Below are positions 2,765 through 36,531 of a DNA stretch of 45,570 nt, piece by piece. Origin of the DNA: an uncultured Lachnospiraceae bacterium (lineage in GTDB: Bacteria; Bacillota; Clostridia; Lachnospirales; Lachnospiraceae); the NCBI GenBank assembly GCA_947174495.1, contig CAMWJC010000020.1, positions 1 through 45,570 on the forward strand. Reading direction: 5' to 3'. Made by a program: the position numbers and the translations under genes. Numbering within the stretch: the stretch's first letter is position 1; each line of letters starts with the position of its first letter. The notes beneath the pieces were generated by a model that was not told the origin of the DNA, searched no databases, and saw only the letters and a list, made by a program, of their open reading frames with translations.

Positions 2765-3808
2765 ATGAAAAAGAAATGGTACATAGCGATAGTGGCAGCT
2801 CTTGTGGCAGTCGTTTTTTCTGGTTGCGGCAAAGCGAGCAATGAAAATATAAGTGCAGGAATGGAAATGATAGCGGCATTGGAATATGACGGTGCTCTTG
2901 CAAGCTTTCAAACAGCGCGGGAGGCAAAAGAAGATGAGAGGCTGATTCTTCGGGGAGAAGGACTTGCCTATATGGGTAAGACCATGTATGAGGAGGCTTC
3001 CCAGTCTTTTGAGCAGGCTCTTTCCTTAAGTAATGGAAGAGTAGTGGGGGTGGATTATGATATCAACTATTATCTTGCCACAACCTATTATAAGCTTGGT
3101 GAGAAGGATAAGGCGGCAGGTGTCTACGATGCCATTACTGCGCTTAAAAGTGATGCCAGAGATGCCTATTATCTTCGGGGAGTTATCCGGACAGAACAGG
3201 GAAATCTGGATGCTGCCAGGGAGGACTTTGATCGTACAATTGCATTAAACAGCAAAGACTATGACAGACTGATTGAGATATACAGTGTGCTGGCGGCAAA
3301 CGGCTTTCGGGAAGTGGGACAGGAGTACCTGCAGGCTGCCATGGATGCGGGAACTAAGGATATGACAAACTATGAGAAGGGTCGAATTTGTTATTATCTG
3401 GAAGATTATGAGAATGCCAGAACTTATCTGGAAAAGGCCAGAGACGAAAGTGGTTATGAGGCAGTTTTGTTCTTGGGAAAAACCTACGAGATTTTAGGGG
3501 ACAATAATTATGCCATCAGCGTATACAATAGTTATCTGGATAGCGGTGAAACGAATCCCCAGGTTTATAACCAGTTGGGACTTTGTAAGATGAATATGGG
3601 AGATTATCAGGGAGCGCTGAATGCTTTCCAGGCAGCAATGAAAGTGGAAGAGAACGGAATGATGCAAACCCTGAAGATGAATGAGATCATTGCCTATGAA
3701 TATCTTGGAGAATACCGTCAGGCGGAAGTGCTGATGGGAAGCTATTTAAAGACCTATCCCGATGACCAGATGGCGCAGAGGGAGCATACCTTTTTGAAAA
3801 CAAGATAA
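2765..3808 (+). CDS. Tetratricopeptide-repeat lipoprotein
   Basis: The 347-residue protein has a basic, hydrophobic signal peptide ending in a lipobox, FSGC, with Cys21 as the lipidated residue, so it should be anchored outside the cytoplasmic membrane. Several TPR units follow across residues 30-340, with the typical A-x(2)-Y-x(2)-G and ALSLSN/ALNAFQ patterns. TPR proteins act as docking surfaces; no catalytic domain is seen. GGAG lies 9 nt upstream of the ATG. The TAA stop (3806-3808) is shared with the left end of mobile element A: TA is flanking DNA and the third base is the first base of the element. The specific role is unknown. Confidence 0.85.
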   Translation: MKKKWYIAIVAALVAVVFSGCGKASNENISAGMEMIAALEYDGALASFQTAREAKEDERLILRGEGLAYMGKTMYEEASQSFEQALSLSNGRVVGVDYDINYYLATTYYKLGEKDKAAGVYDAITALKSDARDAYYLRGVIRTEQGNLDAAREDFDRTIALNSKDYDRLIEIYSVLAANGFREVGQEYLQAAMDAGTKDMTNYEKGRICYYLEDYENARTYLEKARDESGYEAVLFLGKTYEILGDNNYAISVYNSYLDSGETNPQVYNQLGLCKMNMGDYQGALNAFQAAMKVEENGMMQTLKMNEIIAYEYLGEYRQAEVLMGSYLKTYPDDQMAQREHTFLKTR

Positions 3809-3848
3809 ATTAACGTTTAGCTGGTTTATCCATATAACCTAAACGACC

Positions 3849-3949
3849 ACTCGGATAAGAAACAAATTCTACGCGCCATACTGGCGCTAAGCACTGCTCG
3901 ATAAAGCGTTCGCGAATTGCTTCCTTAAGAATTTGTTTCTTATCCGAGT
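3849..3949. repeat. Hairpin 1 of element A (22-bp perfect stem)
   Basis: Arms 3849-3870 (starting ACTCGGATAAG) and 3928-3949 are perfect reverse complements over 22 bp. The 57-nt loop carries a small hairpin, GCGCCA-tac-TGGCGC (3873-3887), and the 22-mer 3896-3917, which is the perfect reverse complement of 4116-4137 in hairpin 2. Confidence 0.9.
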
Positions 3950-4084
3950 TAGTTTTTGGCTGACGGAAAACCAGCTAATGACTCTGCTATAGTTGCCTAG
4001 TTCACGGTCTGGCTATTTGCTAAAAGGTAGAACATTTGACCTTAGTAGAGTTACCGGTTGGGCTTTGCGTCATTCAATAACCCA

Positions 4085-4168
4085 GCTCAGATGAAAAGAA
4101 ATTCTAAAGGAGTCCATTCGCGAACGCTTTATCGAGCGTGACGACGTAGAATTTCTTTTCATCTGAGC
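4085..4168. repeat. Hairpin 2 of element A (22-bp perfect stem)
   Basis: Arms 4085-4106 (starting GCTCAGATGAA) and 4147-4168 are perfect reverse complements over 22 bp. The arm sequence is a diverged version of the hairpin 1 arm, and the loop contains the 22-mer 4116-4137 complementary to 3896-3917 in hairpin 1. The whole element is therefore a quasi-palindrome. Confidence 0.9.
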
Positions 4169-4227
4169 GGACGTCTTACATACGCATACCCAGCTAAACG
4201 TTAATTTAACAATATAGTGATAAATAG

Positions 4228-33287: not shown

Positions 33288-33328
33288 AACATATGGACTG
33301 CATAAATAAATTAGCGTTTAGCGGAGGA

Positions 33329-33585
33329 AGGGGACTGAGTCATTTCAGCTTTCTGTGGCGATAGCGCCTTTCGGGATTTTGGGAACCCGGCCGTCACAAA
33401 TGCCTATTAACTGCCCAGAGCCGAAACTCATACCCTGAATAATAGTTTCTATAAGACGAAATTATTTGTTCAGGGTATTTCGGACAACGTCTCTGGGCAG
33501 CAGCATTTTTGTGACAGCCGTTTCTCCAAAATCCATCGAAAGATCACTATAAGCCATGCGAAAGCTGAAACGACTTCAGTCCCCT
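33329..33585. repeat. Left long hairpin of element B
   Basis: The outer arms 33329-33353 and 33560-33585 match over 25 bp with one bulge and one G-U. Further in, GTCACAAA matches TTTGTGAC, and CTGCCCAGAG (33411-33420) matches CTCTGGGCAG (33491-33500) exactly. CCGAAA and ATACCCTGAA near the apex also pair with the opposite arm. The result is one nearly continuous imperfect stem of about 257 nt. Confidence 0.85.
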
Positions 33586-33688
33586 AATCCCGCTTAAACT
33601 ATCGGCTAAATATGCTGACCGTCAGACTTTTCGTGGATTATTCAACATAGCTTCCGCATTTAGCATGTTACTACTTCTCAACGTAAAA

Positions 33689-33901
33689 TGAACTTCCCAA
33701 ATTAAATACGAATGTGAAAGACTTATAGAATTTTTAGCGTCAAAATCAAGAATCCGTCTCTCAGTATATGTGCAGCCTGTTTTCTTTGTTTGAACGTAGT
33801 GAGTTTGAAAACAGGCTGCTAATATCATTACTGAGAGCGGATTCTTAGATTATGCCTAAAAATTCTATCGTCTAAGCATCGTATTTAATTTGGGAAGTTC
33901 A
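33689..33901. repeat. Right long hairpin of element B
   Basis: The outer arms 33689-33710 and 33880-33901 are perfect over 22 bp. Middle blocks TAGAATTTTTAG, AAGAATCCG and CTCAGTA pair with the opposite arm. The apex arms GCAGCCTGTTTTC (33772-33784) and 33807-33819 are perfect over 13 bp. Confidence 0.88.
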
Positions 33902-33939
33902 ATTCTCACTAAGAAATAATATCCTTGCTAAACGTTAAC

Positions 33940-36531
33940 TTAAGATTCCATCAAAGGGAACGCCAGATTCACCTTAAACAAATCTCCATCCATCACAATC
34001 TCAAACGTACCATTCTGTATCTCAACCAGATTCTTCGCGATGGACAGTCCTAATCCGCTTCCCTCCGTGGTTCTGGATTCATCTCCTCGAATGAATCGCT
34101 CGGTAAGTTCTTCCGGATTTACCTTAAGGGGATTAGCAGATATATTTTTAATGGACAATGTCACCCACACTTCCTTAGTCTCCGCCTTTTTGAGCCCCAT
34201 ATCGATATATACCCGGGTTCCTTCCAACGCATACTTAAAAATATTATTAAATAAATTTTCCATCACACGCCAGATTCTTCTGCTGTCCGCCTGAATATAA
34301 ACAGGACTGCCGGGAGCATTGATCACCGGATACAATGCCTTTTCACGGAATTTCTCAGAAAATTCACCTAATGTCTGATTCAAAAGCTCAACCAGATTGA
34401 TCTTCTCCCATTGAAGAACAATATTTCCGGAAGAGATTTTTGAAGCTTCCACCAAATCATCCGTCAACTGTTTTAACCGCTGAGACTTTTCATCCAAAAC
34501 CTGAATATATTCACTGATCTTTGGATCCTGCACGTTTTGTCTCTTAATCAGATCCACATAATTTATAATCGAGGTAAGCGGCGTCTTTATATCATGAGAT
34601 ACATTAGTGATGAGATCCGCTTTCAGACGTTCATCCTTCATGCTGGTTTCCACCGCATTTTTTACACTGTCGCCAATACTGTTCACCGCTCTTGCCATGA
34701 CCAGATTGTCGCCATACATGCCATTTTCTTTTACCTTATGCTCTAAATCCCCTTCATTGATCTTTCGGATACATTCCAGAATCCGCTCTCTTGCCCGGGC
34801 AGAACGATACAGCAAAATACCGATCAACGCATCTGCCGCCAGCACAATAAACAAAATTAAAATCAATCTGCCAGTTGAACGTTTTCCTGCGAGATTGCCA
34901 AGTACTATCATGACTGCATGAAACAAAACCCAAAGTCCAAAGGGCACTCCAATGCGCATCATCACATCCCAATGCAGATATGCATACCGTATTCCTCTTA
35001 CTATTGCTGCACCCAGCCATCTAATCAGACTGTCTCTCCACAGATTATGAGCCTTAATCCTCCTGACCAAACTATAGTAAAAGAAAGAAAACAATAAGCT
35101 TACTGCCAGCGCTGATCCCCCAGCCAAAAGAATCATGATATTTTCTGATACAATCTGCCATATTGTATTAACTGCTTCTGCAATCAACAAATACATTCCA
35201 AAAGAAACCGCGCAGAATGCAGCTGCCATAATCTCCGTGGGAATCCGGTCTTCCCGATGGAGTCTTATAATAATTTCACCGCTCTCTCTTTTCCCTACGA
35301 CACCTTCCCGCATAGTCAGGATTACCAAAAGAAGAAGGTAAAGGACCATACAGGCAACTGCGGCTATAAGGTACTGAGTCGAATAAGGTGCATATCTGTT
35401 AAATCCATCAGCTGCTTTGGCAAAGCTATCCTGCGCATGGGACAAATCCTTTCGCACGCCGATCATGACCTGCGTATTTTCCGGATAGGCATATTCAAAA
35501 CCGTTCAAGATATATCGGAGTGTGGACTCCTCAATCTTGGTATTTGTTTCAAAACTCATATTGGATGGATCATAGTAAACTGACCTGGAGCAAAGATCCG
35601 ATAATTCTTTTTTTAAAGTTGTCAGATCCTTTGATTTCACTTCCATATTGGTATAAACATACGTCTCTTTTCTGATCGTCTTTCGAATAAAATACACTAT
35701 ATTTGTCTGATCGGATAGATACATATTTTGATATTTCTGATATTCATCATAATTTACCGCCAGATCCTCCGCTGTCTTTTTAATATTCTGGCAAAGTTCA
35801 TAGTACTCTTCCCAACTGGACACAAGGTTTTCTATATTCTTTCCTTCTATGGTGCGATAACGGTTTTTTAGTATTGTCGCATTCGTATCTTCCCTCTGAT
35901 ATTCACCTGACATAAATTGATTGCCCGACACATCACGTACCTTGTTCATCCGGTCCAGATCCGAGTTTAAATAATAGATATTGATATTCCCGCCGTTGTA
36001 ACCATTAACATCATTATCTAATACTGTCACAACACTGAACCTGCTTAAAAACTCATCAGCTTCCTCTCCCGTCATGTACTGTTCCTTATACTCAAAACCA
36101 TTCTTTGACCAATTAATCAAATCATCCAAGCAGTACTGCGCCGTAATATATTCCGGTTCCATGGTGCTATATCTTCCTGCATAAGCTGTGACATCCACTA
36201 CCTTCTTCGCATCGAATTTCCCGTCTGTTTCCATTTGACCTTTAATTACCCCATAACGGATCACATCCGCAATGCTGTTTCCCAAAAGTCTGTTAAAAAG
36301 TATGGAATCCGTGTAGTCTGTCCCTGGCTCTTCCTCTCTTAAATTATACATTTGAAGACCATTACTTCCTTCAATCCATAGAAATGAACTAAGAAGAACC
36401 GTTGCTGCCAGAATAACCGCCATCACAATGGAAATGTGCTGCACCAGATGCAAAAGAAAATTGATACCGCTTCCTGCATTCTTTTTTACTTTTCTAACTT
36501 CTTCTTTTTTTATCTCTTCCTCATTTTTCAT
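33940..36531 (-). CDS. Large multi-pass sensor histidine kinase
   Basis: The 863-residue membrane kinase has an N-terminal helix (about 30-52), a long extracytoplasmic part (about 53-390), about five more helices (390-590), a HAMP-like linker (KINEGDLEHKVKENG near 605), a HisKA dimerisation domain with phospho-acceptor His646 in NVSHDIKTPLTS, and a HATPase domain with GSGLGLSIAKNLVEIQNG near the C-terminus. The stop is shared with the end of element B. The response regulator gene lies just upstream with 11 bp between, so this is a two-component operon. The signal sensed is unknown; the extracytoplasmic domain is not recognised. Confidence 0.92.
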   Translation of the reverse strand: MKNEEEIKKEEVRKVKKNAGSGINFLLHLVQHISIVMAVILAATVLLSSFLWIEGSNGLQMYNLREEEPGTDYTDSILFNRLLGNSIADVIRYGVIKGQMETDGKFDAKKVVDVTAYAGRYSTMEPEYITAQYCLDDLINWSKNGFEYKEQYMTGEEADEFLSRFSVVTVLDNDVNGYNGGNINIYYLNSDLDRMNKVRDVSGNQFMSGEYQREDTNATILKNRYRTIEGKNIENLVSSWEEYYELCQNIKKTAEDLAVNYDEYQKYQNMYLSDQTNIVYFIRKTIRKETYVYTNMEVKSKDLTTLKKELSDLCSRSVYYDPSNMSFETNTKIEESTLRYILNGFEYAYPENTQVMIGVRKDLSHAQDSFAKAADGFNRYAPYSTQYLIAAVACMVLYLLLLVILTMREGVVGKRESGEIIIRLHREDRIPTEIMAAAFCAVSFGMYLLIAEAVNTIWQIVSENIMILLAGGSALAVSLLFSFFYYSLVRRIKAHNLWRDSLIRWLGAAIVRGIRYAYLHWDVMMRIGVPFGLWVLFHAVMIVLGNLAGKRSTGRLILILFIVLAADALIGILLYRSARARERILECIRKINEGDLEHKVKENGMYGDNLVMARAVNSIGDSVKNAVETSMKDERLKADLITNVSHDIKTPLTSIINYVDLIKRQNVQDPKISEYIQVLDEKSQRLKQLTDDLVEASKISSGNIVLQWEKINLVELLNQTLGEFSEKFREKALYPVINAPGSPVYIQADSRRIWRVMENLFNNIFKYALEGTRVYIDMGLKKAETKEVWVTLSIKNISANPLKVNPEELTERFIRGDESRTTEGSGLGLSIAKNLVEIQNGTFEIVMDGDLFKVNLAFPLMES

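Follow-up and report, generated by a model that had tools for sequence, protein, structure and literature searches.

MITE-like elements in Lachnospiraceae with conserved ends and interchangeable large palindromes

The BOX and RUP repeats of pneumococcus are small, interspersed and in some cases modular, and the two elements described here, A and B, are alike in this. To our knowledge, BOX, RUP and Correia elements contain no large nested palindromes like those of the A/B family, and their ends differ. In the available portion of one source (PMC2229807), RUP of Streptococcus pneumoniae is described as a MITE mobilised by IS630-Spn1 with a TA target, and the A/B family resembles it in being short, non-coding and present in many copies with terminal inverted repeats and a TA target. 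RUP differs in being 107 bp long with one sequence and in having an IS630-type partner, whereas members of the A/B family span 300–1090 bp, contain two large palindromes with variable, interchangeable interiors, and occur in draft genomes in which we detected no IS630-type gene (see below). The same portion of that source covers Correia elements, which are likewise small interspersed repeats, and describes the CIR elements of Caulobacter, which share with A and B an architecture of two long inverted repeats forming arms joined by a linker. CIR elements are presented there as having a partial resemblance to MITEs, with stress on a GANTC motif, and this description sets them apart from A and B, which have 15-bp ends with TA. 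Our search of the open-access literature, with subscription papers mostly outside its scope, found no description of these elements.

Elements A and B lie in a 45,570-nucleotide stretch of DNA from an uncultured Lachnospiraceae bacterium, here called the window (Table 1). All four of their ends read ARTTARCGTTTAGC with zero mismatches, and TA lies outside four of the four. At up to two mismatches the window contains four matches to the end, all of them from A and B, against 0.74 expected, and none of 100 shuffled sequences reached four. The interiors of the two elements have no BLAST match to each other at E ≤ 1e-3, and no open reading frame of at least 100 aa lies inside either window element. 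Both fold strongly, B at −283.6 kcal/mol (z −27.8, 20 shuffles) and A at −173.6 kcal/mol (z −15.8, 100 shuffles), and the self-match of the right palindrome of B extends beyond its tabulated length, to 274 nt at 73%. On re-reading, the coordinates, ends, TA flanks and hairpin sizes given in the earlier note were all correct, and so was its view that A and B are alike in ends and layout and unlike in their interiors.

Table 1. Positions of elements A and B, their parts and their flanking genes in the window
Feature	Position	Strand	Remarks
Gene flanking A	2765..3808	+	Ends in TAA, formed by TA and the first base of A
Element A	3808..4206		399 bp; sister of B with the same ends
A left (alpha) hairpin	3849..3949		101 nt
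A middle stretch between hairpins	3950–4084		135 nt
A right (beta) hairpin	4085..4168		84 nt
TA left of B	33307..33308		Outer A doubles as position 1 of the 15-bp end
Element B	33309–33940		632 bp
B left end, AATTAGCGTTTAGC	33309..33322	+
B left hairpin	33329..33585		257-nt imperfect palindrome; from self-match and fold
B linker	33586..33688		103 nt
B right hairpin	33689..33901		213-nt imperfect palindrome, as read from the sequence
B right end, AGTTAACGTTTAGC (minus-strand reading)	33927..33940	−
TA right of B	33941..33942		Together with base 1 of B, supplies the TAA stop codon of the neighbouring minus-strand gene
Gene flanking B	33940..36531	−	863 aa; stop formed by TA and the first base of B; histidine-kinase-like by eye

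Both elements belong to a mobile family that is numerous in gut Lachnospiraceae. The draft genome from which the window comes (G000; 2.89 Mb, 78% complete) contains 79 ends at up to one mismatch, compared with 3 for a reversed-pattern control, bearing out the earlier suggestion of a numerous family; this excess, together with further copies of B, excludes the possibility raised there that the shared 14-bp ends arose by chance and would have no further copies. We cut out 30 end-bounded elements with their flanks from this genome, comprising 25 full-length A-type, 3 short A-type and 2 B elements, the second full B copy being 90% identical to the first; partial B copies also occur, several of them cut by contig ends. 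The family thus shows the many dispersed short copies with conserved inverted ends expected of a MITE. In the congener G032, a 19-base pattern found 60 ends against a control of 0 and at least two B copies are present among the matches listed; a 14-base pattern at up to two mismatches gave 114 ends there and was set aside because its control was high (72), and we therefore rely on the 19-base count. The A interior occurs in 3 of 37 genomes of the genus, namely G000, G032 and, in diverged form, G028, in which related hairpins are accompanied by different, diverged ends, AAGTTYCGGTTTAGTTT (50 versus a control of 2). Lone ends (L058, L060, L063 and others) flank ordinary genes and are relics, and another lone end (L062 from 2501, on G000 contig C14) precedes an open frame whose product, on inspection, looks like a penicillin-binding protein or class D beta-lactamase.

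We scanned 397 genomes of the family Lachnospiraceae with a degenerate 15-bp end pattern, TAARTTNNSGTTTAGY, which matched in 39 of them, with a count of 42 in G000. Exact degenerate ends numbered 29 in G270 (control 2) and 12 in G197 (control 1), and at two mismatches the counts were 164 (control 24) and 34 (control 13), so that the genera of these two genomes are clear outliers. The genus of G448 is weaker, as its 5 matches fall within control counts elsewhere (up to 6), and its case therefore rests on two paired, folded elements; the remaining genomes had at most 2 matches. BLAST matches of the interiors from G270, G197 and G448 to A or B are short at most and lie chiefly at the ends, and seven of seven elements from G270, G197, G448 and G028 fold strongly (z −12.6 to −42.2; 0/20 shuffles each). 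The halves of the G270 elements are palindromes, each an inverted copy of the other half, and the same is true of A. The ends and paired-hairpin layout, which the earlier note had proposed to profile across Lachnospiraceae, thus recur in other genera around unrelated interiors. Two pattern scans of viral contigs returned 7 and 28 stretches. Four G270 elements (L216, L217, L230 and L240) have a common flank, CAATTT(C/T)ATCTT, and may for this reason lie inside another repeated sequence.

We consider it probable that the following account holds as a whole. B would be a non-autonomous, MITE-like element whose transferable core is the 15-bp, palindromically placed end (T)AAATTNNSGTTTAGY around two large palindromes, and it would be moved by an enzyme that acts in trans by recognising these ends, although the searches described below found no mobilising gene. 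The interior would be free to vary and could be replaced wholesale, which would explain the observations that one set of ends carries unrelated hairpins and that the hairpins of B also occur in another type of element. In the well-sampled A type, single events would rewrite one arm from the other, as the event counts given below suggest; the simplest mechanism would be template switching or gene conversion as the DNA replicates, and the hairpins would stay nearly perfect for this reason. Surviving copies would be those that landed just outside coding sequence, often at a stop codon.

When joined, the flanks of window A align at 92% to an element-free stretch of 301 nt in G032, and they are likewise contiguous and element-free in G028, G025 and G033 (81, 77 and 75%, respectively), although small indels at the junction in these relatives mean that the empty site is not exactly readable. 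A is therefore an insertion, with filled and empty sites as expected of a MITE. Some insertions are common to G000 and G032 (L059 corresponds to L154, and L070 to L127), so the family was active both before and after their split.

How the elements enter their sites bears on one alternative, in which they insert conservatively between a T and a purine, with stop codons preferred and without target duplication, using a recombinase or a single-strand mechanism in place of a TA-duplicating DDE transposase. The outer A is kept at 131 of 143 ends and the preceding T at 103, in a pool drawn from loci of several genomes that includes some chance matches. At four independent sites (L045, L053, L070 with its orthologue L127, and L140) the flanks rebuild an in-frame TGA that was opened behind its T, TA flanking one side and TG the other; for none of these TGA insertions did we find an exact empty site. 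The unequal decay of the outer A and the T, together with these TGA cases, argues against strict duplication of a TA target, but the 46 of 75 element junctions that read T|A suit TA duplication equally well. Six of 30 elements in G000 and 1 of 7 in G028 have an in-frame stop as their junction codon, as do, among the matches listed, 4 of 13 in G032, whereas the matches listed for G270 gave 0 of 22; the remaining two genomes gave 0/1 and 0/2. A stop-codon null yielded 60 of 726 pooled sites versus 9 of 41 observed, with a per-element expectation of 17.3 and a coding mask that was too greedy. Across 40 elements, 25 gene ends (open frames of at least 80 codons) abut an element, 15 of them in frame 0, 9 in frame 2 and 1 in frame 1. 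Window A lies at a TAA by the junction test, and in relatives that lack A the counterpart of its flanking gene stops at the same codon. The junction codon of window B is TAT, and so does not count as a stop in this test; in G010 the flanking gene carries a TAA of its own at the matching codon, and in G025 and G028 it ends within about a codon of that position. Weighing the asymmetric ends and TGA sites against the G270 elements and the T|A junctions, we regard conservative insertion as unlikely, though the strongest of the alternatives to the account set out above.

Paired changes are the usual proof of selection on an RNA fold, and the earlier note had proposed that fold rather than sequence is under strong selection in this family. 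We aligned 33 A copies, consisting of 24 of the 25 full-length paired G000 copies (L088 was left out, and the three short copies L043, L046 and L072 were omitted) and 9 from G032, taken from the matches listed. Of the cells in the lateral hairpins, 98.9% are paired; both sides have changed in 20 of the 52 pairs, and double-changed cells number 133, against 38.6 in shuffles, none of 500 of which reached 133. Mapped onto a tree, the lateral stems show 62 double versus 31 single events (74 versus 30 on a tree built without the stem columns), counts of double events that recombination between copies could inflate, compared with 6 versus 89 in the central region. Sliding the partners abolished the signal, leaving 4–6 double and 145–154 single events.

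An RNA explanation of these changes would have the hairpins act as functional RNA, or as terminator or RNA-processing structures, with compensatory selection preserving them step by step. It would account for the very low folding energies, for the abundance of two-sided changes and for the finding that 25 of the 33 copies, taken as whole elements, fold at lower energy on the aligned strand. However, 36 of 60 Watson-Crick double events in A are transversion swaps, without a wobble intermediate, so that transversions outnumber transitions, and among 1704 lateral cells there are 10 wobble pairs and 6 A-C mismatches. The hairpins favour opposite strands, 31 of 33 alpha hairpins being lower in energy on the aligned strand and 27 of 33 beta hairpins on the opposite one (6 on the aligned strand). 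The central region initially offered support in an excess of wobble over A-C (135 versus 26), but this excess recurs on the reverse-strand fold (70 versus 13), which identifies it as a folding bias, and we dropped the RNA reading of it. Nor did we observe the stepwise, strand-specific covariation of a structured RNA, and seven loci scanned against Rfam yielded no match to A or B above the gathering score. We therefore think a functional RNA improbable, and less so to be credited than conservative insertion.

The two-sided transversion swaps and the scarcity of wobble favour arm-to-arm correction at the DNA level by template switching. In the accessible part of one study (PMC8794818), template switching is described as forming and preserving hairpins and as yielding two-sided compensatory changes in single events; the cases there are RNA genes, as opposed to the mobile palindromes of the A/B family, and 61.0% of the instantaneous changes could be passed through wobble, compared with 24 of 60 in the A copies. 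The abundance of paired changes in the A lateral hairpins thus agrees with the earlier proposal, but in most of them both sides are swapped at once, in many cases by transversion, and neither strand is consistently preferred; because arm copying alone would give such changes, selection on the fold is not required. The coupling of arms varies across the family: 14 G270 copies among the matches listed have 151 single-changed and 91 double-changed cells, with 204 wobble pairs and 29 A-C mismatches, and this excess of single changes counts against its generality. Among four B copies, more than one Watson-Crick type occurs in 11 of 89 pairs of the right hairpin and 1 of 102 of the left.

The earlier note had also proposed looking for a transposase gene bordered by the same ends. 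We found none when we examined long end-to-end stretches in G032, G270 and G197, drawn from the ends listed; the transposase genes that do occur inside copies, two of the IS4 family (L138 and L150) and one of the IS1182 family (L240), belong to units with ends of their own (CAATGTCATT... or GG[C/G]CACTGAAAAA...), and we found no end shared between the family and an autonomous IS. That the elements are deletion derivatives of such IS4- or IS1182-type parents is highly improbable, even though L138 (G032) combines family ends with an IS4-family gene of 434 aa between inverted arms of about 115 bp each, and the family ends of L240 enclose, at the palindrome centre (393–2347, G270 contig C5), an IS1182-family gene scoring 332 bits against a curated cut-off of 270, since one end cannot have two unrelated transposase families as its parent, the L150 unit is surrounded by a 10-bp direct repeat within a hairpin loop, and 1 of 28 end-bounded G270 stretches among the matches listed has such a gene. 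The IS4 and IS1182 units are probably riders at palindrome centres. The repeats flanking the IS1182 unit of L240 are inverted, not direct.

As expected of a MITE, the elements generally lack a transposase gene of their own: among the matches listed, 27 of the 28 G270 stretches have no gene of transposase length, and the open frames in two stretches, of 155 and 226 codons, match no Pfam family. An IS630-type gene (DDE_3, E ≤ 0.001), with the same ends or otherwise, was detected in none of the six carrier drafts (G000, G032, G028, G270, G197 and G448), an absence that weighs little because all six are drafts and recent copies break contigs; the same search was positive in 3 of 14 named genomes. 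Large proteins beside the lone ends L208, L214 and L210, which we considered as mobilisers, were sugar enzymes or had no family.

A broader proposal, which we put forward tentatively and with more doubt than conviction, is that the elements form a superfamily spanning several Lachnospiraceae genera, with the 15-bp end as the sole common sequence. Any large DNA palindrome could then serve as the interior, with template switching during replication both renewing and reshuffling it, and some enzyme would insert the elements directly behind the T at T-purine sites, among them stop codons, without duplicating the target. Which enzyme recognises AAATTNNSGTTTAGY, and why large palindromes accompany this end, are questions that the family raises. 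As mobile DNA it provides natural replicates by the dozen, whose paired changes seem to arise in single events and without strand preference, and it could therefore be used to estimate the frequency with which template switching imitates the covariation of an RNA.

The interiors themselves are modular. Five type-C loci (L078–L082) each form one giant hairpin in which the right hairpin of B is nested in the left, and three of these (L078, L079 and L081) have inverted ends of another kind, resembling TTCAGNCTCATAATTTAA. At one locus on G000 contig C41, half of an A-type element is joined to half of a B-type one, and an identical 15-nt insert occurs at equivalent places in opposite hairpins, in alpha of window A and L086 and in beta of L040. 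The L138 locus in G032 (501–2238, contig C15) is symmetric, with the same alpha arm on each side of the IS4-family unit, as if the arm had been copied across. Adjoining the giant type-C hairpin of L078 is a match to 6S RNA (L078:2086–2293, G000 contig C1) that, at 53.3 bits, exceeds the gathering score.
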